A stretch of DNA of 64,000 bases, from the NCBI GenBank assembly GCA_009760855.2, contig WPIO01000031.1, positions 2,669,001 to 2,733,000 of the forward strand. The letters are read 5' to 3'. Below, in pieces: positions 9,039-64,000 of the stretch. The DNA comes from Cristatella mucedo. Taxonomy: Eukaryota; Bryozoa; Phylactolaemata; Cristatellidae. Position 1 is the first letter of the stretch. Every line of letters starts with the position of its first letter. Made by a program: the position numbers and the translations under genes. The notes beneath the pieces were generated by a model. It was not told where the DNA came from. It did no database searches and saw nothing but the letters and a program-made list of their open reading frames with translations.

Positions 9039-10644
9039 TCAATGAGGCTGTCGTGCAGACGAGACAGAAGACAGCGGAGTCAGTTCTGAGTTTCTACCGG
9101 GTCGAGCCCTTCGAAATCTCATGCGAAGTCTCAGTTCGACTAACGATTCTAACTTGCAAACGAATACTGTGAATACGAATATGCCCTGCAGGAAATTGAG
9201 AAGTGAGAAGGTGCAGTGGAGCGCCTCTGAATTTTTCACAGACGCCAGCACAGCAAATATTTACATGATGCCAATCGAAAAGATGAGCTTAAGGTTTAAC
9301 AAAGTTTCTCATACTAGACACTTCTGACAGCTTTCATTTTCCTTGCTGTGATCTCCAGTTTGATTATCACGAAACAGTACGCACAAATGTTAATAGTAAG
9401 AAAAACGCTCAGCGGTGCCAAGAACAGTGATTGATTTCCGAGCCTGGTGCTGAAAGAAGCACTGAGGCAGACCATAAACGGGCCTGAAGGTCAATGTTAG
9501 TGAGTCAGCTGCTAATCATAATCCGATTTACACCAGCGGCATTTTCCAAGCCACGGCGTAGTAGATAATTCGCCTGCTGCGGGTCACGTCTTCCGCGACA
9601 TGAACTCATAGAGCCGGAGCAATCCCTGTCGAATATAAGGCGGTTCAGACGAAGGCCGCTATTAAAAAATAGTGAATTAATACCGCAAGAGCGGCACATG
9701 CCACCAGTGAGTCGCCAGCAAGAGGACGGACTAGAAAAAAAACATAAGAAGCTAAGAACAAGGAGATCGACTGGTGTAGCAGCACTTATCCAGGGAAGCG
9801 GCTTAACAATGAAAAAGCTGCGAAAAAAAGACAGAGGCTAATCTCTGAAAAACAGAGTGCAATGGCTGACACGTAATCTTGAACGACTGGGCATCATATG
9901 GCAGTAACGGAATTAGTAGCTACACACACCAATGCGGTATCGCCTCGAACCAAGTACATTAGGTAGTCGTACTGACGAAGCTTGGTTCCCACCTGAGCGA
10001 AAAGGGAGCCATTTCCAATCAAAAAGTTTGTGTAATGTTCGACTACACAGCTGAAACATAGCACTGTCGTGTCGTTCACTAATACCATGAAAGTGTTGTC
10101 AAGAAAAGTTGAGTTTCGGACCTGAATCCCTAATGCAGCACTTTGCCGTTCTGCAAAAATACACTGGTTGGTTCCATTGATTGGGCGGCAGCTTCCGCTC
10201 ACGTGCTCCATGCCCTGTGGACATGCAATCGAGCATCCTGCAGCTCCGGAGCTGCCAAGTGGGCAGACTTGCACGCTCCGATAGAGCTGAGAGAAAGTAA
10301 GTCCATCCGCCGCTGGACTGAAGGTCTCCAGAGGCGTGAATACAGCTGCCAGAGTTCGGGGTGAGGAGAATAGAGAAGCTTAAAGGCAGAGATCAACATT
10401 GGGTGGGTGAATTTAGAGCTTGTCATGTCAATGCAGAGGCGTCTGAAAATCTGTTGCCCAGACCACAGTCAATGTTCTTATTTGCGGTTCCTTCACCGTC
10501 ATACACATAAGCAGCTGGACCGTTCGTGCAAGCGATTTACAGAGCTGTGAAGTCCAGATTAGTTTCAGCCGCTTGGCAGCTTCTGCAGAGCTTCGTGGGA
10601 GAACTGGCGGCGTTGGTGGAGCATAAGCTAAGCGGCAAGCTTTG
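9039..10644 (-). pseudogene. Receptor copy 1, exon 3 (ectodomain + 7TM), frameshifted
   Basis: The acceptor AG is at 10646-10645 and the exon opens with the same codons as copy 2 (K-A-C-R-L). The frame breaks within about 100 bases. It is open again at 10274-9894, reading 'MQVCPLGSSGAAGCS' and the N-glycosylation-rich ectodomain, and fails at the TM1 entrance. The C-terminal piece 9251-9039 retains TM6-TM7 and a divergent tail. The subregion 10132-10384 is about 97% identical to copy 3, far above the flanking sequence. Confidence 0.87.
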
Positions 10645-11687
10645 CTACAACACGTTGGTCATATATTAGCACTGTTAATACAAGGAATTTGGGATTAAGC
10701 AATTGCGAGAAATCCCTCATAATAAAAGCAATATATTCTAAATACTTTAATATGACTGACTGGTGAGTCAATTTGTCACACATATGCAGACATATTAGAT
10801 CTATGATTGAGTATCCAACCTGAAACATCTCGATAATGCTAATCCACGCGATAACTTAATTAGAACTTTGAGGAAGGAACTCGCTCTTCGTGAAATGACT
10901 TGTGAGTTTGAGTTCGGCTGTTGCCGATCCTTCATTGTCCAGTGCAAGTTCTTCTGCCTCCATTTGAATGAGGCTGGTGAATCAACTAATGTTTTTTCTC
11001 TGAAGCTGTCTCTGCTTGAAAGGACAGTGGTAAGTAGAGGTGCAAGCAAACCGATAGTCTTTATGATAGTAAGAATTCATAAAAGAATAAGAACCTATTG
11101 AAGGCTAGTAAGGTAATTTGCTTTTATAGTTTCAGAGGCCTTTAGATTAACTCCCGCTAGCTCAAGGAGTACGCTTTTCTGTTCTTTCTGTTCTTTCTGT
11201 TCTTTCTCTGCTTTTTCTGCAACAAATCGCTCTATGTGCCATAGAGTCTGATAATTCTGACGGAAGATTTCGCTTCCTAGAATAAAGCATTAAGGACATT
11301 ATTTAGAATTACTGCTAGTGATTAGCCGGTCAACTTCAGCAGGTTGAACAGTAGAGAAAGCAGTTCGGAAAACTGATTGGCTCTAGGTCAGGGCTGAACT
11401 AACATACAGAAAGAATTTATATTAGAATACGGACAACAACACTGCAGATCTTCGTTTAAGAAACGAAAAGGAAATGGAGCACTCTATAACGACACACATA
11501 CGGATGTTAAGAGAGCCATTTCCTGCGTTGCACAAATGATAAAGGCGATATGCAAGTAGCTTGAGAGAGTGAGCTGTTTGTCCCCCCCCATGCTGAGGTG
11601 GACTGACATAATAAGCAGCTGCTGGCTCGAGTCAAAGCGGCAGCTTCCGTATTGACTTTAGCTATTGAAGAACTGCTGAGCTTGTAC
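10645..11687 (-). other. Intron 2 of receptor copy 1
   Basis: Non-coding apart from chance frames. It carries the TTCTTTCTG repeat at 11166-11212 and no other recognised element. Confidence 0.6.
11166..11212. repeat. TTCTTTCTG minisatellite
   Basis: About four to five tandem units of nine bases on the plus strand, in intron 2 of receptor copy 1. Confidence 0.85.
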
Positions 11688-11889
11688 CTGATATACTTCA
11701 GAGCCGTTTCTTCCGGATTTTGCTCTTTTCGGTTTGTTCTGTATGAGTAGCTGGGGGAGGTGCCTGGACACATGTAGCGTCACAGCCTGGTAGCCAGCTG
11801 ATTATCGGGTTGGTTCCAAAATTTTGCACAGTAGATGTTTCTGTATGTGGTACCACTGGACAGTTCCATGACAGGTGTCGAGATTATGT
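11688..11889 (-). pseudogene. Receptor copy 1, exon 2 with in-frame TGA
   Basis: It opens after 'ttttttag' with the same phase-1 start as its paralogues and reads 'TTYRNIYCAKFW', so the second Cys of the YRNIxCAxC motif is already lost. An in-frame TGA replaces a Trp codon present in copies 2 and 3. The donor after 'ATATCAG' is preserved (GTACAAG). Confidence 0.85.
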
Positions 11890-12689
11890 CTAAAAAACGC
11901 CAAGGACAGGAGTACGACATACGTACGTATTGATATAAACGGTATGGTATGCAGCTAAAACGATTCTAGCAATAAATCCTGCGAAATCAGCGTCTATTCT
12001 ATTGATATAATAATGCTATTTGCATTCGATCGGTCGATTACAAAAATACTTTAGCTACTGCCACGCGAGTTAGATTTTTGCCGTGATAATACTGCATAAG
12101 CCTAATTCGGACTAGCAATTTCCATGTTCATCCGGGTATAGCCCTACACATGTATGTACATATATAGAGCTAAATCACTATAAGCGCTTCCTGTCTGAGC
12201 GTTTCCGCACACTGAGTCGGCAGTACTTTTAATTTTGCACTCTATGCATGCATATCCCTGCTGTTCTTGATAAGAGAGATAGTTTCTTCATTTTTGTGTG
12301 CTGCCACACAAAATCGTTGGCCCATAGACATGTGGAGTGAGTAGGCCATCAGTCGTTAGGATTGACACGGGAGTACATTAACGTCTTAAAACAAATTGTT
12401 AGCACACTTAAGATACTCGTGTTGATGCTTAATGCACTGCATCTCTTGGTGTCGTGGACTTTTGGAGATGTGCTTTGACTCTGGTCAGTGTGCTTTTTGT
12501 GCCAGTCTGCTTTTGCACTGGCCCTGGTTGCGTGGCCAGAGCTTAGCTAGAGCTGCGTTGTTTGCAACATGGACAGCTAGCCATTTCCGCTGACAGCGTA
12601 ACAATAATGCAACTGCGAACCTTGCTAGTATGTTCCAGTATGATTTGAGAGCTAATCCCTCCACAGAGTCAGCATTGCTTCGGGCCTAC
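11890..12689. other. Intron 1 of receptor copy 1, unassigned part
   Basis: No repeat or coding sequence is recognised between exon 2 and the LINE-B insertion. Confidence 0.5.
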
Positions 12690-14394: not shown

Positions 14395-14912
14395 CAGTTT
14401 TTGCCTCCATTAGGACGTTGTGCTTGAGCACAGGCGTGCTACTTCGGCGTTAGCATACGACACTGGGCATGCGACAACCATGTAAACGGGGTCTGTGAAC
14501 ACTGAACTTGGTGGGCAAACGTAAGACTCCGTAGGAAACTCCTTTACAACAGAAGCTGATGATGATATTTATCTTGGCAGCAGTCACCGAAGAATGCCCA
14601 ATTGTTGTCACAGGAGCATCCTCTGACCAGGCTGTTGGGCCTGTCAAATACTTCCGGTGACGCACAAGAATGAGCTGCACGACAAAACGAACTGCTAAGA
14701 TTATGGTAATCAGTGCATAGGGAGCTCATTGAGGACGGAGATAAGCCGAATCTATCTGCGATGTTGCGATGAGTTAATTTCGTTGAGATCTTGACATCAA
14801 CAGGCACAGTAGTGCTGTAGTTAGCATCACCCCTTACAATGTTCAAGATCGCTGCCACGATCGACATGGTCAAAATGTCTTTTAAAGTGTGGATTTTTAT
14901 CCTCCGCACCTT
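14395..14912 (-). pseudogene. Receptor copy 1, exon 1 (signal peptide + SMB), start codons lost
   Basis: Aligned with copy 2 from 'AAG' at 14912. The two ATGs of copy 2 correspond to GTG and ATA here. The hydrophobic leader ('SIVAAILNIV') and the SMB block ending 'FGDCCQDK' are readable. One Cys in the 'CSCDxxC' motif is Trp, and a 1-bp deletion after 'CCQDK' moves the rest out of frame. The donor CTG|GTGAGT at 14395/14394 is intact. Confidence 0.86.
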
Positions 14913-18185: not shown

Positions 18186-18273
18186 CAAGAAACAGGATTA
18201 AAAGACCGGAGAGAAAAGAGCTGGAGTAGAGAGGGAGAGACATAGTGAAAGAGAGAGAGAGAGAGTGAGGGGG

Positions 18274-21054: not shown

Positions 21055-21800
21055 GAATTTCCCCCTGGACGCTTCTGCCCCAGACATTCCCCGCCCCCGG
21101 TGGACCTAGGACATTTTCCCGAGGACATTTTGCCCTCCCCCGGGGTAGAACATTCCCCTTACGTTGACGAATGTATCACAAAGAATGCAGATGACTAAAT
21201 AAAGTTCACGCTCTATTAAAATAAAATCAGCTCATTGTAACTAGAGGAATGGATGGATTGGAAGGATGGTTTCTAATGGAGCGAGTGGTGGCGGCGGTTT
21301 CGGTGGCTGCGGCAGCGGCGAGCTATGCAGTTTGGCTCTGCGTAAGGTAGGACCAGCTCGACGCCGCCAGGCACGTGTTTGTACCCGTCAAAGCGGGCGA
21401 GCTCTACGGTGTGCCGCTCGTTCCTGCAAATGAGCGCTAAGCCTCCGAGGTCTGCTGAGTATAACTCGACCTCAAGAGATCTAGTTATACCCTAATACGC
21501 ACTAAGCCACTCATTACGGAATACGAGCAAGGGAGGATTGAGGCGGCGGAGGCGAACCCCTCCCTAAACCCGAAACCTTAAACCCTAAACCCTAAACACT
21601 AAATTCTAAACCCTAAACCCTAAAAACTTGAACGCTAAACCCTAAACCTTAAACCCTAAAACGTTAACCCTAAACCCTAAAACCTAAACCATATACCGGG
21701 GGAAATGACCTACCCCAGGGGAAATGTCAGGGGGGAATGTCCGGGGGGGGGAAATGTTCGGGGGAAATGTCCAGGGGGAAATGTCCGTATACCCGTTTAA
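21055..21800. mobile_element. Short non-autonomous element with GGACATTT-type inverted ends
   Basis: The left end (21055-21160) has repeated 'ggacattttcccga'/'gacattttgccctcccc' units. The right end (21700-21790) has their reverse complements ('gggggaaatgtcc' several times). The interior is partly CpG-rich (21240-21470) and includes degenerate CCCTAAA heptamers. The end architecture resembles the autonomous MULE at 5600-7735, whose ends are GGACAAAATGTCCC tandem units, so it may be a MULE-type passenger element. No coding capacity and no clear target duplication were found. Confidence 0.55.
21562..21692. repeat. Degenerate CCCTAAA heptamer array (plant-type telomere motif)
   Basis: About seventeen units, mostly 'ccctaaa', with variants such as 'ccttaaa', 'cactaaa' and 'acgttaa'. 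The motif equals the TTTAGGG telomere repeat read on the other strand. It is internal to the chromosome and lies inside the 21055-21800 element. Confidence 0.85.
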
Positions 21801-25784: not shown

Positions 25785-27387
25785 TTATGTGGAAGAGAGA
25801 GTAGACAGATGAATCAATTCTGATCTGCTAGATTCTTTAGCTACCCGTAATTCCACAAGCCGTTGCAGTTCAACTAGCGATTCTCGCTTGAAAACGAATA
25901 CTGCGAACACGAATACGCCCTGCAAGGCATTGAGAAGTGAGAAGGTGCAGTATAGAACTTCGGAATTCGTTGCAGATGCCAGGACGGCAAATATCCACAA
26001 GATGCCCATAGAAAAGATGAGCTTAATGCTCAGCCAAAGTTTCTCGTGATGGACACTTCTGACAGCTTTCGTTTGCCTCGCTATAATCGCCAGTTTGATT
26101 ATCATGAACAAATACACGACTAGGTCAATAGTAAGAAAAATGCTTAGCGGCGCCAAGAATAGTGCCTGATTTCCGAGCCTGGTGCTAATGAAGCACTGAG
26201 GCAAACCATAGCCGGGCCTGAAGGCCAGTGTGAATGAGTCAGCCGCTAATCCTAATCCAACGAACACTAGCGGCACTCCCCAAGCCAAAGTGTAGTGGAT
26301 TACTCGCCTGCGGCGAGTCACGCCTTCAGCTACGCGAAATGATAGGGCCTGAGCGATCTCTGCCGAATATAGGGCTGTCCAGAAAAAGGCCACTATTAAA
26401 AAATAGTGTATCAACACGGCAAGAGCAATGCATGCCATCGGCGACTCGCCTGCAAGAGGACGTACTAGAAAAAACAAGAAAGCTAAGAAGAAAGAAATCG
26501 ACTGGTTTAGCACCAGTTCTCCAGGAAAGCGTCTCAACTTTTTTAGCAGTGAAAAAGCAATGAAATAAAGGCAGAGGCTAATCTCTGACAAACCAAGTGC
26601 CATGGCAGACACGTAAGCTGGAACGACTGAGCACCCTGTAGCAGGAGCGGAGGTAATCGCCACACACGCCAATGCGGTATCGCCTTGAATAGAATACATT
26701 GGGTAGTCATAGTGACGAAGCTCGTTTCCCACGTTAACGAAAAGGGACCCATTTATGATAGAGAAATTGTTGTAATGTTCGACTACGCAGCTGAAACATA
26801 GAGCTGTTGTGTCGTTCAATACTAGCATTAGAGTGTCGTTATGAAAAGTTGAGTTCCGGACCTCAATCCCTAATGCAGCACTTTGCTGCTCTACCAAAAG
26901 GCACTGGTGGGTTCCAATGAGTAGGCGGCAGCTTCCGCTCACGTGCGTCATACTCAGAGGGCATGCGGCTGAGCACCCTACAGCTTCTGGGCTGCCATGT
27001 GGGCACACTTGCATGCTCCGACAGAGCTGAGAGAAAGTCCATCCACCGCTGGACTGTAGGTTTCCAAAAGCGTCAATGCAGCTGCCAGATTTCGGAGTCA
27101 AAACGATAGAGAAGCTTAAAGATGGATGTGGGTCGTCTATCGCAGACAGTGAAGCATGACACACCAAATTCGAGGAGTCATAAAATCCATTGCACATGGC
27201 ACAGTCGATGTTCCTGTATGAAGATCCGCTGCCGTCGTAGACATAGGCAGCTGGACCGTCGGTGCATGCGATTTCCCGAGCTCCACCAACGGACTGAGTG
27301 GCTTGGCATTGGCGGATCATTCCCTCAGTGCAATTTCGTGGACGAACAAGCGATGTTGGTGGATCGTAAGTCAGACGGCAGGCTTTG
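25785..27387 (-). CDS. Receptor copy 2, exon 3 (ectodomain + 7TM + C-tail)
   Basis: The acceptor 'tatgttgcag' ends at 27388. The first base completes a Ser codon begun in exon 2. The frame is open for 534 codons to the stop at 25785. It encodes the second YRN module, a Cys-rich stretch ('CRSMQVCPHG'), several N-x-S/T sites, all seven helices without an intron, and a tail of about 35 residues rich in Ser, Glu and Leu. Copies 1 and 3 align along its whole length. Confidence 0.93.
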
Positions 27388-30300
27388 CTGCAACATAATA
27401 ATGATAAATAAGTACTCTTAAATACCTATACTTTGGGGTTCCGAAATTTCGACAATTTATCTGCGTCGGAATAAAACGTGTTATAAATTACCTAGCGTGA
27501 AGGCTCACCTATGGATTGTCATAAAATGTTTACAATTACCCCGTCGCGGTGTTTCTGTAATAGAATCCACAGCTATTTGTGCCGCATGCATTAACGCATT
27601 CGATAGTTGGGGATTCGGTTATTATGCAATGTAATATTTCTCCGTCTACAACTCACCAAAGTCACAAAGACGAAGTGAGTGTTATGCAAGGGAGTTTTTC
27701 TAAGTGCACTCAAAGCCTAAATAGCTTTCGTTATGCACGGGGCACGGCCAAAAGACTTCATCTAATGCAAAAACAAGAATATCAGAACCATTAATTGAGC
27801 CAGAATGGCCATGGAGGTGGTGAGTAGCATAGAAGTAGCAGCACTAAATGGCTGGAAAGAATGTGCTACAGTTAGCAGCTAGAGAGTGGATGTATTTGCA
27901 TATGAATTGTAGAAATGAGTTTCACAGTCTAGACCTGCAGGGAAAAAAGCTTCTGCCGCCAACGAGCTTTAAGCTGAGGAATGTAACACTAATTTACTGT
28001 CTATAGACGATATAAACGCCCTTCGTCATTCTATTCACTCGAAACACGAGCTTGGTGATAATGCTCACAAGCATTGTTAGTGATAACGTTCGTAGTCGTC
28101 GGTGCCGATATCAGTGTATAAGCATCATCCGTCGATCACCCCAGCATCAAGTACGATTGTCCCTGCATCACCAAAGGTATTGCGTATTTGTTGAGCGAAG
28201 CGAGGCACTTGCTAATGGGCAGCGAACCGACATAGTCAATCAGCGTTACTTTTCTTATATTGATAACGTTGGCATTTCTGTTCGGTACGGTAGACAAAAC
28301 ACAGGTGGCTGCCATTAGCGCCACTAATTGGTGGTTCTTGGTAATGCTCGCATAGTGACTGCTTTTTCCAGTTTTCTTTTCCACTCTCTCGCTCTCTCCC
28401 TCTTTGTCTCTCTCTGCTTTTCTCTCTTGCTCCCTGTCTCTCTCACTCTCTCTTTCTCTTCTTCTTCTTCAACTGCTTTTTTTTTATCACGGGTGTACGC
28501 TACAGACCCTGCTGGTTTCATTGTTCGGCTGATACGCCAACGAGGCTTACACTAGGAGCTGCTAGAAAGTCTTCGCTGTAGACCCATTTAGTTCAAACCC
28601 ACGATCTAATGACACCGTATTCCAAATCAATTAGAGGCAAATCGGCATCGGCTCAGCTCTGAGCTCGAACCTAGTTGGAGGACGGTGCTAGTGTAAGCTC
28701 ACCTTTAAGTACGTCAAGGCTTGTAGGGGAAAACATACAAGTGGTAGGTGAAAATTCACAAATGTTACGTATTTGCGCAATTAGCTTAGGCTGTGAGTGC
28801 GCTATAAAAAACTCTCATGCGTAACACCCACATGGTCTTTATGACTTTGCGGAGTTACAGACGGAGATACATACAACGGGCGGCAAAGGCCATGAAAGTT
28901 ACGTCAAGGAAGCCGGGTAGGGCGGTGGTGCACTGGCCCACTTCGGCGTCCGTATGAATAACCGTCTTTGAGCCCGCTTCGGTGTTCTGCGTGGTGTCGC
29001 GTACCTGCCGTTAGGGAAAATGTCAAACTACAGCCGCCACTTGCTGTCGTCAATAAAAGATCGACCGCTGCTGGAGTTGAACCCACGACCCAGGTCGTAA
29101 AGAGCGGATACAACTAGCAACAGCTGAATTGATTCAGAGAAAAAACAGCTTCCAAGTGAATTTAGCAAGCGAAGCACTATCTAGTTTGTACCTGATATAG
29201 TCTAGAGCTGACTCGTAGGGATGCACACTGGCCGCAGTCTGAAGATCAGGCGATGCAGAGCTGGTGGTGGCTTCACTAAGCTCTATTTGAGATTCATCTA
29301 AGAAGCTGGATGGAGCACCTGTGCATGTGTAGTGCCAAAGCCACGTAGCAAGCTGATCCGCAGGTTGGTCCCAACATTTTGCACAGTATATGTTCCTATA
29401 CGTAGCACCTGTGACTAGTGAGGTGACAGGTGTCGAAAGCGTGTCTACAAACATAGAAAGAATATGCATGCCTGACGTACGGTGCTGCATTCTATGTCAA
29501 CAACATCCCAGTGCGCGAATAACTTGGATAAAGATTCAGCATTCTTAAAGTCTACACCACAAGGTTTTGTGCAACAGGTCATAATGTCTCACAGATTCTG
29601 CTTCGGCTACATACGCTCACTTTTCGCTATGGTAGCACGGCCTTCACTCAGCGCTGAAATGTCAATTCCATATAGAGTTTTTACAAGTAAGCATTTAATA
29701 CTTTGTACATTGTAATCAAGTTGTATCATGTAATGTATCATGTATCATGTAAATGTATCATGTATCATGTAAGTTGTATCAAGTTGCCACATTACTCCAC
29801 TTCTCGCCGACCTGCACTGGCTACCAGTCAAGCAACGGATTGACTTCAAGGTTTTGTCGCTCACTTTTAGGTCCCTTCATTCTATGGCTCCAGCCTATCT
29901 GTCAAATATACTACCCCATCAGGCCAAGCATCGTACCACCCGCTTTTCGGAATCCAACTGTCTAGAAATACCTCATACAAACCTTAAATCCTTTGGAGAC
30001 CGTGCATTTAGTTCATATGCTCCCAAAGCCTGGAACTGCCTCCCGACCTGCGTCAGAACATCCCATGACCTGACCACATTTAAAAGGAACCTAAAAACAC
30101 ACCTATTTAGGACAGCATTTAGTGGGTCCCTGTGAGTCGTCCTTGATGTGCTTATGCGTGCTGACACTGTGCATGCTGCCACTAACCACATTTGCATGCT
30201 GACCCTGTGCATGTCACTCCTAACCATATTATTAATTTTGTTTGTTTTTCAAGCATGATTTTACTTACTATTCTATTGCATATCACTTTGCAGCAAATGT

Positions 30301-33300: not shown

Positions 33301-36282
33301 TGGAGGCAATGAAATTCGCGATGTCTTTGCCTGTAGCCAGCAGTAAAACGGCAATAAACTAAATAATCAGCCATCATTCATCTCCGCTGTCTTGTGAAGA
33401 CGAGCGATGTCTTTCCTACCTTCCTCCCCTCGTCTTGGACAATCTTCTTCACTAAATGCTTTTCCCAGCCTAGGTTAAATTTATGTTGCATGTTGCTATA
33501 ATTTATCATTTCTCAATGAGACTTAGTGCTTCCTGAATGCGGACTCACTTCGCTGAGTCGTAGTTGCTTCGTCACGTAAGACAAGGCTGCATGATCTTGC
33601 TGTTTGACAGAAGTGTGCCATCTTTCGGCGTGACGGACTTTCTCGTTTTAATTAGTAGAGATTAAGGATGACTGAAATAACTTTCTTCGGAGCTTGGAAG
33701 TTCACTTTTCAAAAATAGACTACTTCCCTCTCCCAATCACTGATAACAAGTACTGCACCTAAAATACACTCGTCCATGTGCCAAAATGTCAAAGTTTATT
33801 TCAGCCTTTCAGGCTTAAAAGTGAGCTTGTAATGCATGACCGCGTTAAATGAACTGAGCAGCGACCAAAGAAGAAGTTGAAGAGTTATGTTTGACGAAAT
33901 TCCAATGAAATGCTGCATGCTTTGGCGGCACGACAATTAGCCTTCCACTGTGTCCTAGAAGACTTTTCAAACTGGGTAGGACGCCAAATTAGGGATATTT
34001 AAGAGTGTGTTTTCTTCATCTTTACTTGCAGTCGCTGATGCTGCCAATTGCAAAGTCATTGGGGGGTAGAGGATCCCCCTACGGCGGGGTTGTGACTTGG
34101 GTCGCTCATATGCTTCGCCCAGCCCCAACCGTCACCGCAAACAAAATTAACACTAATTAATTAATTAAAACTTTATCGATGAGTAAGTCACTGAGTTCCT
34201 CTCGAATTAACACTAAAGTTTTGGCCTGTAAGTTTTCGTTAATTGAGAGTCTAGCCCCGCCTACATACAAATCTTGAGGGTCTTTCTTCCTACGAAACAA
34301 TTTTATTTTGAGGGTCTTATCCCCAGAGGAAAAAACTGGCTCCACCAATGGATTTACGTTCAAAACTTTTAAACGTGAGAATGGCAAGCAATATGTGGAT
34401 GAAAAACTTGGCTCAGATTTGCGCATTCCTTTTTGCAATTTGGATGCAAGGCATAAACGTCATTGAGCGTAAAAATGCAGAGCAGAGAGAACAAATTTGA
34501 GCCACCTTGTTGCAGAACATACCAACGCCAGAGCTATGATGGCAGGTAGACGCACTCTTTAATTAAAATCAAGTGAATTCCCGGCGGAAAATCAATTTGA
34601 AGCAGACGTCATAATATGTTCAAAGTTAAAGTTTCAGCATGACGCGCATCAGAAACTTATGTAATGAATAACCGTTAATGATGTATAGGGCCACTCGTGT
34701 TTTACTAGTCAGAGCTGGGTTTCGCTTGTGTCTTCTAACAAATTTTTCTGCTTATCATGCAACTACTCGCTGGGAATAGTAAAAACAAAATTGATAAAAA
34801 TAAGAGATCAGCTCAAATAAAAACAGAGATTTTCTAAAACGTTCATTTAATTTTTCTATAGAGAAATTTACAAATTTATGTGTAGAAATTTAAGAAATTT
34901 ATTTTTCATTTAAAATTAACGTCGCAAAATAGTAGGTTGCGTTCAATAAATAAACTGATTCAGCTATCACTAACCTATTTAACGCTTACGGTCGATCTTT
35001 CCAGACATGAGCATAGCAAAGCATGGGAAAGCCTACGAATAGGGAAAGCAAGTAGCTCATGACCGATCTTCAACACAATATGCTGCTACATGAAGAAAAG
35101 TAGCGACCAAGCTCGATGTTATGTGCTTAATTAATTTATTCAGCTCTCGCAAATAGCAATTTTTGCATCCGAACAATTGAAGCAAGGCAAATTTTCTCAA
35201 TTGTCAGCTTCAACGTAGACTAAAAGGCCGTCTGCTTATGCATTTTCATCAGTCAATTCTAATACACCTATAGCGCACCGTAAGATCCAGCCACATCTAG
35301 GCGTTTACGAAGACAAGAGTTTAGTATAGCTTTCTAGTTTTCTATAGTGCACACTGGAGAAGCCTAAATGGATTTAGCTACGCATTCGATAGCCGGCAGA
35401 CTTCCTCTCACGCAACAAAGAGAAAATGAAAAGCACAGCCGAGTCGGAAGGGCAGTCGAGTTAGTGAGTAGTATGGAAGTAGCAGCTCAAGACGGCTGGA
35501 AAGGATAAACCATAGTGTGCAGCAGAAAAGTAGATGTCTCGTTGTGCAAGAATTGTGAAAATGAGCCCAAAGTCTAGGACCTGCAGAGCAAACGCTTCCG
35601 CCGCCAACTGTATTTAAGCGGAGGAACGCCGAGTGAGTAACTCGATCCTATTCTATAAGATAACAATCTCATGTCTATTATTGGCACGAGTTGGTACACG
35701 GGAAGTACGTAGGTCACCAGCAGAGCACAAATGGCGATAGCATGCTAGCAGTCACAGCCAAATTGACTCACCAGTTTTCGGCTGACTTAAGAGTGTCGTG
35801 TTTGTGCACAGTCGGGATAGTTCGGTGTTATTATACGATGCCGGACATGCAATAACCATGTAGACAGAGTGCAGGAACACCGAACTTGGTGCGCAAACAA
35901 AGGACTTCGCAGGTAACGCCTTTGTAGCAGAACCTGAGGATGGCGTTTTATCTTGACAGCAGTCACCGAAGATTGCACAATGGTCGTCGCACGAACAACC
36001 CCTGTCCACCCTGCTGGGCCCATCTAATCCTTCCAACAAGGCACAGGAATGAGCTTCCGGACAAAGGGAACTGGCGTCATCCGGGGTAGCTTTGAAGGCT
36101 TTTCTTTGAGGCGTAGGTAGTTCGAAGGACTCTGTGAAATTGTATTCGATTACAGTTGTAGAGATGCTGTCATTAACCGGTTCAGTCGAGCTCTCGATGG
36201 CGTCACTGCCTAATGTGCTTAAGATCGTTGCCGCGATCAAAATGAATGAAATTTCTTTAAAAATGTGGATGCTCATCCTCAT
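25785..36282 (-). CDS. SMB-domain class B 7TM receptor, copy 2 (intact, 3 exons, 788 aa)
   Basis: Exons 36282-35772, 29444-29192 and 27387-25785 join in phase (1, then 2) into 788 codons plus stop. Residues 1-26 are a hydrophobic signal peptide. A somatomedin B domain follows at about 74-111 ('CSCDDHCAIFGDCCQDK'). Two similar modules, 'YRNIYCAKC' (186-194) and 'YRNIDCAMC' (312-320), sit in a glycosylation-rich ectodomain of about 510 residues. Then come seven helices (about 512-754). Class B marks are the conserved Cys pair (about 574 and 653) and 'LNALQGVFVF' in TM7. I see no GPS cleavage motif. The family signals from the plasma membrane through G proteins; the ligand is unknown. ATG 36282 was chosen because it precedes the leader, and a second ATG lies two codons on. 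It is the only intact copy of three. The first intron is 6.3 kb and full of retrotransposons. Confidence 0.87.
27810..28035 (-). mobile_element. LINE-A 3' fragment
   Basis: Minus-strand match to the last coding part of LINE-A (compare 42545-42740): the 'gtgagtagcatagaagtagc' segment, 'tctagacctgcag' and 'cttctgccgccaac' are shared. Strongly mutated. Confidence 0.75.
28378..28468. repeat. CT-rich pyrimidine tract
   Basis: Irregular (CT)n with TTCTTCTTCTTC near its end, in intron 2 of copy 2. Confidence 0.85.
28770..28880 (+). mobile_element. LINE-A 3' terminal fragment
   Basis: Plus-strand match to the LINE-A 3' UTR: 'ttaggctgtgagtgcgctat' through 'acggagatacat', ending just where the TACAT-type tail begins (compare the reverse complement of 42360-42470). 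Confidence 0.8.
29040..29115 (-). mobile_element. tRNA-headed SINE-like fragment
   Basis: On the minus strand a B-box-like 'gtgggttcaactcc' follows a weak A-box-like 'tgctagttgtatcc' at roughly tRNA spacing. There is no cloverleaf, so it is a SINE head or tRNA relic, not a tRNA gene. Confidence 0.45.
29192..29444 (-). CDS. Receptor copy 2, exon 2 (first YRN module + linker)
   Basis: The exon starts after 'ctatgtttgtag' (phase 1, completing an Asp codon) and ends 'TATATCAG' before GTACAA (phase 2). It encodes 'TYRNIYCAKCW', a Trp-rich stretch ('LATWLWHYTC') and a Ser/Thr/Ala/Glu-rich linker ending 'SALDYI'. Copies 1 and 3 have the same exon with the same boundaries. Confidence 0.9.
29720..29785. 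repeat. ATGTATC minisatellite
   Basis: Repeated 'tgtatcatgta' units, directly at the 5' junction of the LINE-B copy that follows. Confidence 0.85.
29789..30373 (+). mobile_element. LINE-B 3' copy, young subfamily
   Basis: A plus frame encodes the LINE-B C-terminus through 'TFKRNLKTHLFRTAFSGSL', then the 3' UTR, the 'agaaagagattgagttctct' tail and (TTA)n at 30352-30372. It is about 96% identical to 17139-17735 with the same 5' breakpoint. Confidence 0.9.
30374..30840. other. Unassigned intronic sequence
   Basis: No recognised element. Confidence 0.45.
30841..32008 (-). mobile_element. LINE-B copy with reverse-transcriptase C-terminal half
   Basis: From the ATT-type tail at 30841 the minus strand runs through the 3' UTR into an open 220-codon frame (31768-31106) carrying 'DFSLDDHFSSTVK', 'FDRAFVTSRLDFCNSLLAGL' and 'LPLLADLHWLPVKQ'. 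A second frame (32008-31775) has 'YSDDTQLYLCFD', the YADD catalytic box with Ala changed to Ser, and 'FLKLNYDKTN'. It is truncated just upstream of that box. This is the most complete readable LINE-B copy here. Confidence 0.9.
32009..32380 (-). mobile_element. Second LINE-B 3' copy, abutting the first
   Basis: A complete LINE-B 3' end with its own (AAT)n tail (32011-32034) lies directly against the truncated 5' end of the copy at 30841-32008. It ends at 32380 within the 'SYAPKAW' coding region, next to another element. It belongs to the young subfamily. Confidence 0.88.
32381..32954 (-). pseudogene. Remnant of a widespread repetitive protein family, function unknown
   Basis: The minus frame from 32954 reads 'SRLRKWNEHTIEYPNLP', an acidic Ser/Asp-rich stretch and 'SQSDLDDFVRDLDLVKESAE'. 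After a frameshift it reads 'DPAEWRLFIRSSNTSF', then in another frame 'LFHNGNELNS', and finally a GLMK-like block with 'YVKALTQDGD'. This order matches a protein family I remember as present in many copies in arthropod, cnidarian and vertebrate genomes and probably transposon-derived. The large middle part is deleted and several frameshifts are present, so it is dead. The adjoining LINE-B insertion cuts off what followed. Confidence 0.6.
32955..35354. other. Unassigned intronic sequence
   Basis: AT-rich, with no recognised element apart from the small frame at 34157-34438, noted separately. Confidence 0.45.
34157..34438 (-). other. Unrecognised 93-codon frame
   Basis: A Lys/Leu-rich open frame containing 'KIKLFRRKKDPQDLYVGG' and 'LVLIREELSDLLIDKVLIN'. 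It is too protein-like in composition to dismiss and could be the end of a retroelement ORF1 or a decayed exon. I do not recognise the family. It lies in intron 1 of receptor copy 2. Confidence 0.3.
35355..35645 (-). mobile_element. LINE-A 3' fragment
   Basis: Minus-strand match to 42450-42740 of the long LINE-A copy: 'acgcattcgatagccggcag', 'acgcaacaaagagaaa' and 'tctaggacctgcagagc' are shared. Confidence 0.82.
35772..36282 (-). CDS. Receptor copy 2, exon 1 (signal peptide + somatomedin B domain)
   Basis: Encodes 170 residues plus one base. The leader is 'MRMSIHIFKEISFILIAATI'. The SMB cysteines are at residues 74, 80, 96, 98, 102, 108 and 109, with Cys130 a candidate eighth. SMB domains are small disulfide-locked modules that bind proteins, as in vitronectin. 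The donor is CTG|GTGAGT. Any upstream untranslated exon is not identifiable; the frame is open for 33 codons upstream of this ATG. Confidence 0.88.
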
Positions 36283-39500: not shown

Positions 39501-39859
39501 CAAACCTACGGCGACGAACAGCTAAGTGTAACTTAGACTACGCAGTTGTGTTCTGCCGGCTACTCAGTTAGCTGCTCGTATCTTGGGGTGCTGAAGCAAC
39601 CCGCCTTCGCAATTGCTAGCGACGCGCGCATAGGTTAGTGTATTATACGCGGGCTTCGGGAGTTCGCGCAGTTAACTCCGTCGGTCCGGTACGCGCCGCG
39701 TAAAGCGCTTGCGCCGGCGCGTAACCACTACTAACAGGCCCACAATAAACTGTTGCTTTCGGCACCCAGTTGTGGCCGCCTGTGTTTTAACCGCACTGCA
39801 GCACTGCATCACACAGTCCACCGGTAGAGAACCGGGGGACGAACCTCTACGCGGTTACA

Positions 39860-42414: not shown

Positions 42415-43980
42415 TTACGCAGGAGAGTTTTGTATAGCGCACTCACAGCCTAAGCGGCTTTCGTTACGCATTCGGTAGCCAACAGACTTCGTCTCACGCA
42501 ACAAAGAGAAAGTGGGAAGCATAGCAGAGTTAGGAGAGCAGTTGAGGTAGTGAGTAGCATAGAAGTAGCAGTTCAGGACCGCTGAAAAAGATGTGCCATA
42601 GTCGGCAGTTGGAGAGTAGATGTCGTTTCGTAAGAATTGTGGAAGCGAGTTCCACAGTCTAGGACCTGCAGAGCTAAAGCTTCTGTCGCCAACTGTCTTT
42701 AAGCAGAGGAATGGGACAGCTAATTTATTGTCCACACAGGACCTGAGGGCGCGAACAGGCTGAAACTGATGTAGCAGTTCAGCTAGGTATGAAGGAGCCA
42801 AGCCGTGGCGGGCCTTGTGGGTCAGCGTAAGAACTTTGCTCTGTATCCTTTGCTCAACCGGCAACCATCCTAGCTCTTCCAGCAAAGGTGACACGTGCTT
42901 AAACCGCTGGGACTTGAAGACCAGCCTTGCAGCCATATTCATAGCCCGCTGTAGTGGCATAAGAGCTTTCTTTGGTAGCCCAGCCAAAAGGGAATTACAA
43001 TAATCAAGCCGAGACAGAACTAAAGAGCTAGTTAGATTTTTTAAAAGCCACTGTGGGAGACAGCTTCTAATCTTGGATAGGGATCGGATGTGATGGCTAG
43101 CTGTAGAGGCAGTCTTCTGAATGAAGCTTTTGAAATTGAGGCAGCTGTCGAACACGACACCTAGATTACGAGCACGTGGTGAAGGTCGCACAATAGCATC
43201 ACCTATTAGAACAGCAAAGCATTTTAATCCAGCCACACGCTTAGGGTGTCCTATGAGAAGCAGTTCGGTTTTATCGTCATTTAATTTCAGGAAGTTTTCC
43301 AACATCCAGAATCGAATATCGGCAAGGCAAGCATTCAGTTTCTCAGTTGCTGCAGCAGATTCCGACGGTTTAAATGACAAATACAACTGAGTATCGTCAG
43401 CATAGAAGTGATATCGTATTCCATGGGCCTTAATCACTTTTCCCAGAGGTTGCCTATAAATGGAGAACAGCAAGGGACCAAGTACAGACCCTTGGGGGAC
43501 TCCACAGGTGACCCTTCTGATGTCTGAGACCTGACCCCCACACGACACGAATTGAACACGATCAGACAAGTATGATTTAAACCACGCCAGTGCTTCGTCT
43601 GCCAGACCGATCGTTGTTTTCAGTCGTTCAAGCAGAACATCGTGGTCAATGGTGTCGAAGGCATCAGACAGATCTAGCAGAGCTAGGGCAGTGACATGCC
43701 CGTCGTCGTTGCCACGTAGAATGTCATTGTTAACACGGAGGAGAGTAGTTTCGGTAGAGTGCTGCCTCTTGAAACCTGATTGAAATGTTTCTGACATTCC
43801 ATTATTTTCAATATGTTCAACGAGCTGCTTAGCAACAATTTTTTCAAGAATCTTTGATAAGAATGGAAGAAGGGAAACTGGACGATAGTTTGCCAGGACC
43901 TCTGTGTCTAATCCAGGCTTTTTAAGAATAGGTCTAACGATTGCCGATTTGAAGGACTTGGGGACGATCCCTTTTCCCAA
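42415..43980 (-). CDS. LINE-A reverse transcriptase (ORF2 C-terminal part)
   Basis: The frame is open for 521 codons. Visible in order: 'NYRPVSLLPFLSKILEK' (fingers), 'ALLDLSDAFDTIDHDVLL' (motif A with catalytic Asp), 'GVPQGSVLGPLLFSIY' (motif B), 'YADDTQLYLS' (motif C, catalytic Asp pair), 'FLKLNDDKTELLLIG' (motif D). The thumb and C-terminal region follow ('SRLDYCNSLLAGL', 'LGWLPVEQRI', 'PRLWNSLPQFLR'). It copies element RNA into DNA at the target site. It has no credible own start codon and is the tail of a longer polyprotein broken upstream, so this copy cannot move by itself. Confidence 0.93.
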   Translation of the reverse strand: MGKGIVPKSFKSAIVRPILKKPGLDTEVLANYRPVSLLPFLSKILEKIVAKQLVEHIENNGMSETFQSGFKRQHSTETTLLRVNNDILRGNDDGHVTALALLDLSDAFDTIDHDVLLERLKTTIGLADEALAWFKSYLSDRVQFVSCGGQVSDIRRVTCGVPQGSVLGPLLFSIYRQPLGKVIKAHGIRYHFYADDTQLYLSFKPSESAAATEKLNACLADIRFWMLENFLKLNDDKTELLLIGHPKRVAGLKCFAVLIGDAIVRPSPRARNLGVVFDSCLNFKSFIQKTASTASHHIRSLSKIRSCLPQWLLKNLTSSLVLSRLDYCNSLLAGLPKKALMPLQRAMNMAARLVFKSQRFKHVSPLLEELGWLPVEQRIQSKVLTLTHKARHGLAPSYLAELLHQFQPVRALRSCVDNKLAVPFLCLKTVGDRSFSSAGPRLWNSLPQFLRNDIYSPTADYGTSFSAVLNCYFYATHYLNCSPNSAMLPTFSLLRETKSVGYRMRNESRLGCECAIQNSPA

Positions 43981-44011
43981 AGAAGCATTAAAAATCTTGG
44001 TTATCGCAGGG

Positions 44012-44506
44012 CTAAGTTGGTCTGCAAGTGAAGACCACAGAGATGAAGGTAGGGTCTTCAGGAGACGAGCTCTTTTTGCTAGACCTTATTAAGGCAGCCA
44101 CATCACAGGCAGAAACATCAGAGAATCTTTTAAGAAAGGTCACAGGTTGAGGAACGGCGATTGCTTTGGTCGGAGGGGGCTTAATGGAGGCACGAATGTG
44201 CACAATTTTTTCAGTAAAGAAGGCTGAAAACTTTTCGGCTGAGCCCTTAATATCTGGGGAGTCAGACCTGACAGCATTGGCCAGTAAATGGTTTACTGTC
44301 TTATAAATCTGTTTAGTGTCCGACTGGCAGGAATTCAGTTTTCTAATGAAAAAAGAAGCCCTGGCTTTTTTAAGCTTTCTGGTGTAAACTCGAAGGAAGT
44401 CTTTAAAATTGACTAGATCTGCATCAGACCCCGATTTCTTGACACGATGTTCTAGCCTGCGCTTAACCCGGCGCATCTTAAGGAGTTTTTTGTAAATTGA
44501 AAGCAA
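44012..44506 (-). pseudogene. LINE-A ORF2 linker between endonuclease and reverse transcriptase
   Basis: A 164-codon frame rich in Lys and Arg ('MRRVKRRLEHRVKKSGSD') with 'YTRKLKKARASFF', the typical segment ahead of the fingers domain. It ends in a frameshift immediately before the reverse-transcriptase frame. Confidence 0.82.
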
Positions 44507-44815
44507 TCTCGACGACTTTGAACACGGATAGAGCGAACGGGAGCATGCTTGTCAAGAGCACTCCTGAGTGTCATGTTCATCGCATCTGTGAGGGTATCGA
44601 GGCTGCCGGTCGAGTCTGAATGCAGATCAAGAAGGCCTGCATCACAAACAGATTTCAAAAACTTGTCCATGTCAATGCTTTGTAAGTTACGTCGTTTGGC
44701 AAATTCGACATTGCCCTGCACGTACGAGGTAGCAGGAACAGTAAACGAGACCGAACAATGACCCAAGTGTGACACGGGCTTTCGATTGTGAAAGTACGTG
44801 AGTTCGGGTACACAT

Positions 44816-52190: not shown

Positions 52191-52441
52191 CGGTACGCGC
52201 CGCGTAAACGCACAGGGTAGTTGGTTATACTCGGGCTCCGGTAGTTCGCGCAGTTAACTCCGTCGGTCCGGTACGCGCCGCGTAAAGCGCTTGCGCCGGC
52301 GCGTAACCACTACTAACAGGCCCACAATAAACTGTTGCTTTCGGCACCCAGTTGTGGCCGCCTGTGTTTTAACCGCACTGCAGCACTGCATCACACAGTC
52401 CACCGGTAGAGAACCGGGGGACGAACCTCTACGCGGTTACA
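52191..52441 (+). mobile_element. Partial LTR sharing its 3' end with the solo LTR at 39 kb
   Basis: 52246-52441 is identical to 39664-39859, including the AATAAA and the GGTTACA terminus. 52191-52245 is related but diverged. An 18-bp string 'ccggtacgcgccgcgtaa' occurs twice (52191 and 52268). No matching U3 and no target duplication were found. Confidence 0.82.
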
Positions 52442-55712: not shown

Positions 55713-55742
55713 TAGTACGAAATGCTTTAGTTCATGCCATAA

Positions 55743-57362
55743 TTACCGGCTGCTTGCCGGTCGCGTGGACGAGATAGTAGGAAATTGAGTCAACACCAAG
55801 CTGTTAGATGCTCTAGAATCTCGTAATTCGATACGTCGTCGCATTTCAACTAACAATTCTCGCTTACAAACGAATACAGCGAACACGAATACGCCTTGCA
55901 GGGCATTGAGATGAGAGAAGGTGTAATAAAGAGCCTCAGAGTTTGTTGCAGATGCCAGCACGGCAAATATCCACAAGATGCCCATAGAAAAGATGAGCTT
56001 AATGCTCAGCCAAAGTTTCTCATGATGAACACTCCTGACAGCTTTCGTTTGCCTCGCTATGATCGCTAGTTTGATTATCATATAGCAGTACACGAAAATG
56101 TCAACAGTAAGGAAAATGCTCAGCGGAGCCAAGAACAGCCCTTGGTTTCCGAGCCTGGTGCTGATGAAGCACTGAGGCACACCGTAGCCGGGCCTGAAGG
56201 TCAAACTGAGAGAGTCGGCCGCCAATCCTAACCCAACAAACGCAAGTGGCACTCCCCAAGCCAAAGTGTAGTAAATCATTCGCCTGATGCGAGTCACACC
56301 TTCCGATACTCGAAACGATAGTGCCTGAGCGATCTCTGCTGAATATAAGGCGGTCCAGGCGAAAGCCGCTAGTAGAAAGTAGTGAATCAGCACAGCCAGA
56401 GCTAAACATGCCACCGGTGACTCGCCTGCAAGAGGCCGGACTAGAAAAAATAAAAAACCTAAGAAGAAAGAAATTGATTGGTTTAGCACCATTTCTCCAG
56501 GAAAGCGTCTTAACTTCCTTAGCAAAGAGAAAGCAATGAAAAAAGACAGAGGCTAATCTGTGACAAACAGAGTGCGATGGCTGACACGTAATCTGGAACG
56601 ACTGAGCATCCTGTGGCAGTAATAGAATCAGTAACTAGGCACGCCAATGCAGTATCTCCTTGAACCGAATACATTGGGTAGTCGTACTGACGAAGCTTGG
56701 TTTCCGCCCGAGCGAAAAGGGAGCCATTTACAATCGAAAAGTTTGCGTAGTGTTCGACTACACAGCTGATACATAGTGCTGTCGTGTCGTTCACTAATAG
56801 CATGAGAGTGTTGTTAAGAAAAGTTGAGTTCCGGACCTCAATCCCTAATGCAGCACTTTGCCGTTCTGCGAAAATACACTGGTGGGTTCCATTGATTGGG
56901 CGGCAGCTTCCGCTCACGTGCTCCATGCCCTGTGGACATGCAGTCGAGCATCCTGCAGCTCCGGAGCTGCCAAGTGGGCAGACTTGCATGCTCCGACAGA
57001 GCTGAGAGAAAGTCTATCCGCCGCTGGACTGAAGGTCTCCAGAGGCGTGAATACAGCTGCCAGAGTTCGGGGTGAGGAGAATAGAGAAGCTTAAAGAAGG
57101 GGGTTCGTGGCCCAATGCATATGCTGGAGACTGGCATGCCAATGTCGAAGTATTCGACTTTACGTTGCACAGGGCACAGTCGATGTTTCTGTATGAGGAT
57201 CCGGTAGTGTTATACACATAGGCAGCAGGCCCGTTGGTGCATGCGATTTCCCGAGCTCTCCCAACCAATCCAGCCGCTGGGCAACGACTGGTCATGCCTC
57301 CAATGCAGTTTCTTGGACGAACAGCCGTTGTTGGTGGTTCAAAAGTTAAAGAGCAGGCTTTG
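55743..57362 (-). pseudogene. Receptor copy 3, exon 3 (ectodomain + 7TM) with one stop and one frameshift
   Basis: The acceptor 'tgttacag' ends at 57363, and the frame is open from there with 'KACSLTFEPPT' and 'SSYRNIDCALC'. At 57016-57014 a TAG replaces a Trp codon of copy 2. The frame then continues open to TM1, where a 1-bp deletion in an A run (56538-56545) shifts it. From 56525 the remaining 260 codons are open to TAA 55743, including TM2-TM7 with 'LNALQGVFVF' and an intact Cys pair. With only two lesions in 540 codons it could be a young pseudogene, a polymorphic allele or an assembly error. Confidence 0.88.
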
Positions 57363-57849
57363 CTGTAACACGATGATCATACATAAGGATTATAATTACT
57401 TGAACTTTGGGTTTTAGCAAAAATTAAAATTGACAGCTTATTACACAAAAATTCCCCGATGTGAGAGCTAGCAGATCGGTATAACAGTTTTCTTATAATA
57501 GTGTTTCTAGAATGAAATCTTTGACTATCGATGACACATTTATTAACATATTCGGCACAATGGGCTAGGCCATTTCTAAGTCGACCCTTGGTAATGAGAG
57601 TTCAAACGTTATACTGCAATTAGTCTCAGTCTTAATCATAGCAAGAGCTAATATAAGAGCAAAAGATCGATCGAAATAGGTAAGCAGATGTACTTGGTTG
57701 ATTTCTCCTCGGTCAACCTTTAGACTAAATGCAGTCTTTTGTGTGTCAGTTTTTTAAGGTAAACTAGCTAAACGACAGGTTTCTAACTACCTGTAAGCCT
57801 TAGGCTAAATCTGGTTGACTGAACAGTGGGAAAGCTTCATTTTCTTGCT

Positions 57850-59040: not shown

Positions 59041-59052
59041 TACATATATATA

Positions 59053-59063
59053 TGTGTGTGTGC

Positions 59064-59098
<35 letters not shown>
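59053..59098. repeat. (GT)n microsatellite
   Basis: About twenty GT units with two GC interruptions, directly after the SINE tail and an AT stretch. Confidence 0.95.
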
Positions 59099-59099
<1 letters not shown>

Positions 59100-59603: not shown

Positions 59604-59856
59604 CTGATATAATCTAGAGCTGACACTTTGGTATGCACGCTGGTCGTAGTCTGAAGATCGATCGATGCAGACCTCGTAGTGGCTTCAATAGGCTGACTTT
59701 GAGATCCGCCCGAGGAGCTGGAGGAGCTGGCTGGACACGTGTAGCGCCACAGCCACGTAGCCAGCTGATTCGTTGGCTTGTTCCAACACGTTGCACAGTA
59801 GATGTTCCTGTATGTGGTACCTGTGATTAGTTCAGTTACAGGTGTCGAAATCATGT
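59604..59856 (-). pseudogene. Receptor copy 3, exon 2 (open; gene broken in exon 3)
   Basis: This exon is itself undamaged: 253 bp, the same length as in copy 2, phase 1 in and phase 2 out. It reads 'TTYRNIYCATCW', 'LATWLWRYTC', a Ser-rich linker and 'SALDYI'. It is listed as pseudogene only because of the two lesions in exon 3. Confidence 0.85.
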
Positions 59857-60939
59857 CTAAAATGTTCAAGAATCAGATACAGCTATTGAGCTGAAGAGTA
59901 TGGCATGTAGCTAGTGCAACTCTAGCAGTTGATCCTGTCAAATAAGCGTTCATTCTGTCAATATAATTATGTTCTTGCTAACAGTTGGCCATATTGCTTC
60001 AGATTTCTGGCTACTAATGCACAATAATTATGTTTTGGTAATCCTGAATTCTCATAACGCTGAATAGCCAATCTAAGTATGAATCCACACACTTGTATGT
60101 TTGTAAGTGCATAAGGACACAACTTGCTTCTAACCTTCACTCTTGAACAGCTGTATTTAGTAATAAGTCTAATCCAAGTAACGTAGATTCAAGTTTCATG
60201 GTTCTGCGATAATCGCTACCAACGGAGATTTAATGTTACTAAAAAAATCCTCCGTGGAGCTAGGGCAGTCTAATTTACTAAATTAGATGAGGCTCCCGAA
60301 CACTGCAGAAAAGCATTTTAGTTAATATTATGCTAATCTTTGAAGTATCATTTCTAAGTTTGAATTTCAGGCCTAAAAGCTGCATTGAATTTACGACCAC
60401 ATGTTACTGAAATGAGCCGTAGGGAAGAAATATACGTTATATTTGATCTTAACAAATCGACGTAAGAGCAGAATTTCTGTGACATGGCAATACACCTGCC
60501 ATGGTCTCTTAAAAGAAGTTTCAAACAAAGTATCACACAGAATCAGGAAGACATAGGTTTGGTTTTTATCATCATTAATGTGCCTAAAATCAAAGATACA
60601 GCGATAAATAAATGTAAAATGCAAGGGTGGCAAGATATATTTGGGTAACTAATTTGATTCTGATTTGACTTTGATCAGATTGATTGAGTGCATTTTGAAC
60701 TGAAAGCTTGGACATAAGGTTTTAAACATAAAAATTATTAATCATACTCACGCAGAGTTATTAGAATGAATTTCAGTCACTAAGTTGTACAACATCCGAG
60801 ATTTGTGAAGGAAATCAGGCGGCTACTTAAATCGTTTAGAGTGAATTCCTCTCTAAAGTCAATTTCAAACAAGCATCATACAGTGCTCAAAGTCCAAGTG
60901 ACATCGCGATGCATGTAAGAACGCTATCCGATGAACAAC

Positions 60940-62054: not shown

Positions 62055-62445
62055 ACTAACCTCAAATCCTTTGGAGACCGTGCATTTAGTTCGTATGCTC
62101 CCAAAGCCTGGAACTCCCTCCCGACCTGCGTCAGAACATCCCCTGACCTGACCACATTTAAAAGGAACTTAAAACACACCTATTTAGGACAGCATTTAGT
62201 GGGTCCCTGTGATTCGTCCTTGATGTGCTTATGCGTGCTGACACTGTGCATGTGCCACTAACCACATTTGCATGCTGACCCTGTGCATATCACCCCTAAC
62301 CATTTTATTCAATTTGCTTGTTTTTCAAGCATGATTTTACTTACCATTTAATAGCATTTCCCTTTGCAGCAAATGTAAAGCGCCTAGAAAGAGATTAAGT
62401 TCTCTGAGGGCGCTTTATCAAGTACATTATTATTATTATTATAAC
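62055..62445 (+). mobile_element. LINE-B 3' copy, young subfamily
   Basis: Starts inside 'SFGDRAFSSYAPKAW' and runs to the full 3' end with (TTA)n at 62429-62443. Very close in sequence to 17139-17735 and 29789-30373. Confidence 0.88.
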
Positions 62446-63995
62446 TGAAGTTTACTCATAGATCGCTGGGCCTTTTCTGGGCTGCCAAATGCTATCACAA
62501 ACTCTGGGGCTACGATCATAATCTGCATTCTGCTCGGCTGTTTTTTAACTGGGGGTCAAAATGCCTATGCACGTTATGCATCATTGCTGTGCTAGCGGTG
62601 ACATGATTATTTGAAATTCTGATTAGCATTCCAGTTTGCGGCTTCTGGCTGTTAAAATTCAACGTTCTTCTCAGTGCTACTGTCAAAATAACCCGACTTC
62701 AATTATCGAAGCCCGGTTACGTGCCAACCAGCTGAGGTTTTTCCTTACAGTATTATGGAATAATCATTTTGGTTGTACGGTCGTAAATGGTAGTATTGTT
62801 AGCAACACACTCAACCAAAGTTTTAGTTCGTCATTGTCGGCCGGATACTTGTGACAGGGAGGGAATTCACTCTAGCCACTCAAAGATGAAAGAGAGACTA
62901 GTTTTCAAAAAAATGTCCAATTTCATTATGTTTTTTTCCTAAGTAAGCAAAGGAGCTCAAGATCATTACTGACGGTAACGAAGCCTTCCTCCCAATACCG
63001 GCAGTATTCGCTATTCTCGCAAAGTATTCATTCCTCACATATGAAAAATTTTCGCAAATTCTCTGGTGCCCAAAATGTTAAAATACTCAATCCCGAGTTT
63101 TCCTTATATCCGATAATAATTATTTGATATACATCATTAGGACTCATTGGCATGAAAGAGACGATTCTCATAAGATGGCTCGGTAATCTGACATCGATGT
63201 GGCCGGCTGTAGCCTTGGACTATACAGCTGACCGTTGCAGTGATGCACTTATACGGGATATCCGTCATCGATATCCATTTTGAGAGCAACAAAACAGAAT
63301 AGCTTAATCTATAAACCAATAGATCAGAATGGCAGAAGTTGCAGTAAAATTTTCATCGCATGCAGTAAAATGTTCCAGCTATCATCGTTTTTGGACTGCT
63401 TTCAGTCTTTCATATTTCCGATTTATAAAGCCACGAACTAGGGGAACAGTCGACTGTGATGGAGTTGTATCAAGTCAGATTGGCCTCTACGTTTTCTCAA
63501 TCAGTCTAATCGTGCAAAACATGTCACTTACGCTATTTCTATACAGTGACCATGATTTGGAGGAAGTGGACCGGCTTTATAAAAACTAAAGATCAAGTAT
63601 AGCGGTGCCATAGATACAGCCACCAACTACATGTGATACCACAGACAAAACCAACGAATTCTGTTACAGTAAGGAGTTGAGCTCAACAGAATTTCTGCTT
63701 ATGTGAGGCTAAGCGAACGGATTATCAATTCATACGATCCGCTGCAGTAAACTCTCGAGCTAACGGGAATTGTTGGCACCAGTTTTCGCATAGGAATCAG
63801 ATCAACTGAGAGTTTCATAATCGCATAAAAGGTCACACCAGGCAAGCACTGGCTACTCTGACGCGTTATATTCGTGGCACCACAAGATAGCTCTAGCACA
63901 TATAAATGCCACTTTAAAGTTCATTACTCTGCCACATTTCACCAGTGGAAGGCAAGCAGCCAAGTATGCTTGCCGTCGCCACAAAAGCGACTCAC

Positions 63996-64000
63996 CAGAT
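63996..64000 (-). pseudogene. Receptor copy 3, last bases of exon 1 (continues beyond the window)
   Basis: ATCTG|GTGAGT on the minus strand matches the CTG|GTGAGT donors of copies 1 and 2. The SMB exon should lie immediately to the right of the window. Confidence 0.65.

Follow-up and report, generated by a model that had tools for sequence, protein, structure and literature searches.

Three paralogous receptor copies lie in tandem on the minus strand of the window, that is, the whole 64,000-nt stretch of DNA analysed here, and this observation is confirmed as real and accurately read. The trio most probably (roughly 0.85) consists of SMB-bearing class-B 7TM receptors of which copy 2 would be working, copy 1 long dead and copy 3 recently broken, with gene conversion between copies 1 and 3. 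As a birth-and-death receptor cluster the locus is ordinary, and its kind is already known. Exons, lesions, the pattern of selection and the tract shared by copies 1 and 3 were all computed directly.

The gene model of copy 2 comprises three exons:

35772-36282, minus strand: copy 2 exon 1, with a signal-peptide-like start (judged by eye and from hydropathy) and an SMB-like cysteine motif, ending in phase 1
29192-29444, minus strand: copy 2 exon 2, ending in phase 2
25785-27387, minus strand: copy 2 exon 3, with the remaining extracellular region, the 7TM domain, a short tail and the stop

Joined across 36282-25785, these exons give 2367 bases, a multiple of three, which read as a single frame of 788 codons plus stop, and the introns have GT donors and AG acceptors in phases 1 and 2. 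Start, frame and splice borders are all undamaged. An earlier sequence-only reading had named these exons and described 788 codons without a lesion, and the join is indeed open with consensus borders. A chance origin of such a join was ruled out by the tblastn E values and the neutral simulation given below.

The domain content of the copy 2 protein was examined using Pfam, in which 7tm_2 scored 72.2 bits against a cut-off of 20.6 (E 5.3e-20); a weak Frizzled match fell under its own cut-off. Hydropathy gave overlapping segments across residues 509-755 that were sorted, by manual grouping, into seven TM helices. Exon 3, queried together with 12 codons of the preceding intron, matched 21 solved sequences with an E of 0.01 or less, all of them named adhesion GPCRs, and the 7TM similarity to the vertebrate ADGRG2, ADGRG6 and ADGRE5 chains reached a best E of 2e-15. 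Unlike these and the classical adhesion receptors, copy 2 gave no GPS or GAIN match in Pfam at E up to 1, a range in which HMMER filters discard most matches above about 0.1, and has no HL[S/T] site in its first 530 residues. Kringle and Methuselah_N were likewise absent from the same Pfam listing. An AlphaFold2 model of exon 3, for which the input was the exon together with four short paralogue pieces, drew seven long helices and was rejected as too poor, with a mean pLDDT of 34.6 and 526 of 534 residues below pLDDT 50.

The SMB label for copy 2 is based on cysteine spacing and on a Somatomedin_B match (16.5 bits, E 0.011) under the 23.1 cut-off. The pattern CxCx3Cx5CC occurs once, at residue 96, and the vitronectin SMB has an equal core cysteine spacing in a weak alignment to exon 1 (E 0.31), which is outranked by an unrelated plant allergen (E 0.21). 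The ectodomain holds 30 cysteines before residue 505, and a unit around YRNxxCAxC is present in two copies at residues 134-222 and 255-335 (score 49, reached by none of 1000 shuffles), in a region that matches no Pfam family; the remaining nine segment pairs tested for ectodomain repeats were not above chance. The three paralogues are probably receptors of the SMB-7TM kind with a class-B 7TM domain. The family assignment made earlier is supported to this extent, with 7tm_2 above its cut-off and a putative SMB based on the sub-threshold match and the cysteine spacing.

When the copy 2 protein was compared with the window using tblastn, copies 1 and 3 were found as clear homologues on the same strand, with match sets at 14903-9057 and 59857-55764, and exon 3 E values of 1e-139 and 0.0, respectively. 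No fourth copy was seen within the 64,000 nt, the remaining matches having E values of 0.22 or worse. The segments of the two copies are as follows:

14416-14903, minus strand: copy 1 exon 1 (pseudogene), by aligned codons; one frameshift, donor kept, start codon of copy 2 not conserved
11582-11890, minus strand: copy 1 exon 2 (pseudogene), by tblastn extent; one stop, both splice borders kept
9057-10646, minus strand: copy 1 exon 3 (pseudogene), by aligned codons; 11 stops and 4 frameshifts
59606-59857, minus strand: copy 3 exon 2, by aligned codons; free of lesions, both splice borders kept
55764-57364, minus strand: copy 3 exon 3, by aligned codons; well preserved apart from one stop at 57016 and one frameshift near 56542

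Exon 1 of copy 1 aligns to residues 2-163 of copy 2 and has a non-ATG codon at the position of the copy 2 ATG. Within exon 2 only residues 171-218 of copy 2 could be aligned, the 3' half aligning poorly, and exon 3 also carries in-frame gaps and insertions. Frameshift-tolerant alignment gave a total of 12 stops and 5 frameshifts for copy 1, a count that varies with gap penalties and leaves out unaligned parts. Copy 1 is identical to copy 2 at 77/161 amino acids in exon 1, 28/47 in exon 2 (first half only) and 342/511 in exon 3, and copy 3 at 54/84 in exon 2 and 405/532 in exon 3. For exon 1 of copy 3, tblastn found no match between 59857 and the end of the window; in copy 2, exons 1 and 2 are 6.3 kb apart. 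Copy 1 had previously been described as decayed and copy 3 as having two lesions only, and both descriptions proved accurate.

All 11 splice borders visible inside the window agree among the copies: both borders of exon 2 and the acceptor of exon 3 are kept in copies 1, 2 and 3, and the donor of exon 1 is kept in the two copies whose exon 1 is present, copies 1 and 2. The common exon boundaries claimed earlier stand for these 11 borders, exon 1 of copy 3 lying outside the window. An origin of the copies as processed retrocopies was rejected, splice sites being kept at every one of these borders.

The selective history of the paralogues was analysed by fitting a codon model with three branches to exons 2 and 3. 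The omega values for copies 1, 2 and 3 were 0.65, 0.32 and 0.37 over 556 codons, and a single common omega was rejected (p 0.011); with the shared tract removed (485 codons) they were 0.64, 0.32 and 0.38. In the latter set, omega = 1 was rejected for copy 2 (p 1.4e-8, 2dlnL 32.2) and copy 3 (p 2.6e-5); for copy 1 the rejection was weak (p 0.018). Since its omega of 0.64 is below 1, the death of copy 1 does not span its whole branch. For exon 1, in which only copies 1 and 2 could be compared, omega was 0.62 (p 0.03; 161 codons).

By region, the 7TM part of copy 3 gave an omega of 0.21 (p 1.3e-7), which supports former selection on this part of the predicted receptor, and constraint on its ectodomain was not detectable (omega 0.82, p 0.64 against 1; 0.84 and p 0.66 with the tract removed). 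The low 7TM value would also be expected if copy 3 were functional too and both of its lesions were sequencing or assembly errors. The frameshift sits in a run of six T, a typical site for indel error, and could be an assembly error. However, the stop comes from a G-to-A difference with no homopolymer around it (longest run 2), and this together with the lack of detectable constraint on the ectodomain makes a functional copy 3 unlikely. Copy 3 would rather be a once-selected receptor that has recently lost its frame, and copy 1 one that probably died long ago.

Copy 2 is very probably under selection, as judged from its branch omega and from the stop counts of a neutral simulation. Constraint is seen in its ectodomain (0.32) as well as in its 7TM domain (0.33; p 0.0008 for the 7TM alone). 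Neutral change was simulated as substitutions only, with no indels; at 0.86 substitutions per codon, the amount on the branch of copy 2, the simulated copies had a mean of 16.1 stops and none of 1000 runs was stop-free, and at 0.515 the mean was 10.9 stops with 1 of 1000 stop-free. The earlier description of copy 2 as intact is borne out, and a paralogue branch omega of 0.32 (p 1.4e-8) supports purifying selection on it. Because this omega comes from three paralogues, one of them long decayed, the branch may contain constraint that predates any loss, and a very recently dead, silent copy would look like copy 2. With two of the three copies broken, all three might be dead or dying, copy 2 being a pseudogene silenced so recently that it still lacks lesions. 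Yet stop-free copies made up only 75 of 1000 at 0.1 neutral substitutions per codon and 8 of 1000 at 0.2, so that only a very recent death fits, and the start, frame and splice borders of copy 2 are intact; we regard this reading as very unlikely.

The most likely interpretation is that copy 2 is the working gene, with a predicted signal peptide followed by an SMB-like module, an ectodomain rich in cysteines that bears the repeated YRNxxCAxC unit, and a secretin/adhesion-type 7TM domain, no GPS cleavage site having been found. Such a receptor would presumably be expressed, would bind an extracellular ligand via its cysteine-rich region and would signal via a G protein; it would lack the self-cleaved tethered agonist known from classical adhesion receptors.

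A tract of unusual similarity between copies 1 and 3, which the sequence-only reading lacked, was found in exon 3; the tract and the order of events that it allows are the only notable additions to that reading. Its two sides are:

10147-10369, minus strand: gene-conversion-like tract, copy 1 side
56862-57080, minus strand: gene-conversion-like tract, copy 3 side, including the stop at 57016

In exon 3, 436 sites set one copy apart from the other two, and those common to copies 1 and 3 cluster at copy 2 coordinates 27105-26887, where they make up 39 of 44 informative sites. The segment score of 28.1 compares with a best of 13.6 in shuffles that treat sites as independent, and was reached in 0 of 2000. 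Copies 1 and 3 are identical at 213/219 sites (97%) in the tract against 1043/1366 (76%) outside; the corresponding values are 79.9% and 75.9% for copies 1 and 2, and 81.3% and 81.1% for copies 2 and 3. The tract end is not sharp, as the excess identity between copies 1 and 3 trails to about 26650 (copy 2 coordinates) at 86-90% per 100 columns. No comparable segment was found in exon 3 for copies 1 and 2, where the best was reached by 216 of 2000 shuffles, and copies 2 and 3 showed a mild segment at 26051-25969 (15 of 2000).

Gene conversion would be the simplest reading of this tract. Selective constraint acting locally, or changes confined to copy 2, might be proposed instead, given that copies 1 and 3 were both constrained for part of their history and that identity between copies 1 and 2 is also somewhat raised inside, but this is most improbable, since identity between copies 2 and 3 is not raised there and third positions account for 19 of the 38 sites with copies 1 and 3 against copy 2, so that the sharing is not confined to amino-acid-changing sites.

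Under gene conversion, copy 3 may be the likelier donor; this direction is weakly favoured because the identities of copy 2 within the tract are nearer to that of copies 2 and 3 outside (81.1%) than to that of copies 1 and 2 outside (75.9%). Within the tract, copy 3 departs from a state common to copies 1 and 2 at a single site, which lies in its stop codon at 57016; the other two copies encode tryptophan there. The stop would therefore most simply postdate the exchange, and copies 1 and 3 would have exchanged part of the ectodomain before it arose. None of the 11 exon 3 stops of copy 1 falls in the tract (p 0.19), but one of its four frameshifts does. As support for the tract, lesion depletion was set aside as weak, and the argument from a lower p (0.016) over a longer stretch is circular, that stretch having been chosen for lacking stops. 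A broader proposal, that dead copies still swap ectodomain sequence with live ones and that the pseudogene serves as their reservoir, or as a sink, appears decidedly doubtful. If true, such exchange would shape how diverse the ligand-binding region is, with the 7TM part evolving on its own.

The ages of the copies were compared from neutral distances outside the tract, which were about 1.48 (copies 1 and 2), 1.28 (copies 1 and 3) and 1.35 (copies 2 and 3) substitutions per codon as summed branches. As the pairwise distances are alike, the three copies are similarly old, and their lesions date the loss of constraint and not the order of birth. The locus had been described as a graded birth-and-death series; the birth-and-death decay stands, but the grading as successive ages does not, the copies being about equally diverged. 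Elsewhere in the window, a 233-base repeat pair (39627-39859 and 52209-52441) is 96.6% identical and, on that identity, probably arose much later than the receptor copies did.

The locus fits the group of SMB-bearing 7TM receptors known from sea anemone, planarian, amphioxus and acorn worm, and judged by this gene family the window would come from an animal. The Mth/Mthl tree includes SMB-bearing 7TM homologues in N. vectensis, B. floridae and S. kowalevskii (PMC4768249), which resemble copy 2 in having a 7tm_2-type domain and no Methuselah_N; their ectodomain carries Somatomedin_B, for which copy 2 has a sub-threshold match, and the likeness is one of domains. Likewise, NvX and PARF1, the latter comprising 12 planarian receptors with SMB domains (PMC3261222), share with the present locus an adhesion-like 7TM domain, an SMB that is putative in copy 2, and a multi-copy occurrence, theirs being a lineage-specific group. 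The amphioxus adhesion expansion, with ten genes bearing SMB and Kringle domains (PMC2246102), is also multi-copy and combines SMB with an adhesion-like 7TM domain, whereas copy 2 has no Kringle match. Arthropod Methuselah differs in its Methuselah_N ectodomain, which was not matched in copy 2 (Pfam, E up to 1). No ligand of SMB-bearing 7TM receptors is named in the available parts of PMC2246102, PMC3261222 and PMC4768249. A limited literature search found no paper on adhesion GPCR pseudogenes with gene conversion or on tandem somatomedin arrays, though such papers may exist.

Receptors of this kind are thus reported as multi-copy in several animal lineages, and the present locus consists of one intact gene model without a found cleavage site and two broken copies. 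A lesion of one broken copy can be placed in time against a sequence exchange, and the locus thereby provides a small, checkable example of receptor-cluster turnover.

The window also holds other elements. Rfam at gathering thresholds gave no matches in it and no tRNAs were found; a search for relatives among viral_contigs gave three stretches matching a pattern and no relatives. A FLYWCH/MULE-type DNA transposon occupies 5607-7714, with minus-strand ORFs 7177-6404 (the first, which carries the Pfam match) and 6403-5831 adjoining at one stop codon, flanked by inverted repeats of about 129 bases that are 83.7% alike and contain short sub-repeats. A non-LTR-like reverse transcriptase ORF (RVT_1, E 7.9e-34) lies at 42415-44085 and is overlapped downstream on the same strand by an ORF without a Pfam match (44012-44551). 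Distinct from this element is a family of repeats with LHWLPVK-like ORFs, which occurs repeatedly in the window and in both orientations. Finally, about 18 degenerate CCCTAAA units (76% matches) form an array at 21562-21690 next to a GGGGAAATGTC-type minisatellite; CCCTAAA is the plant-type telomere unit, here within an apparently animal genome.
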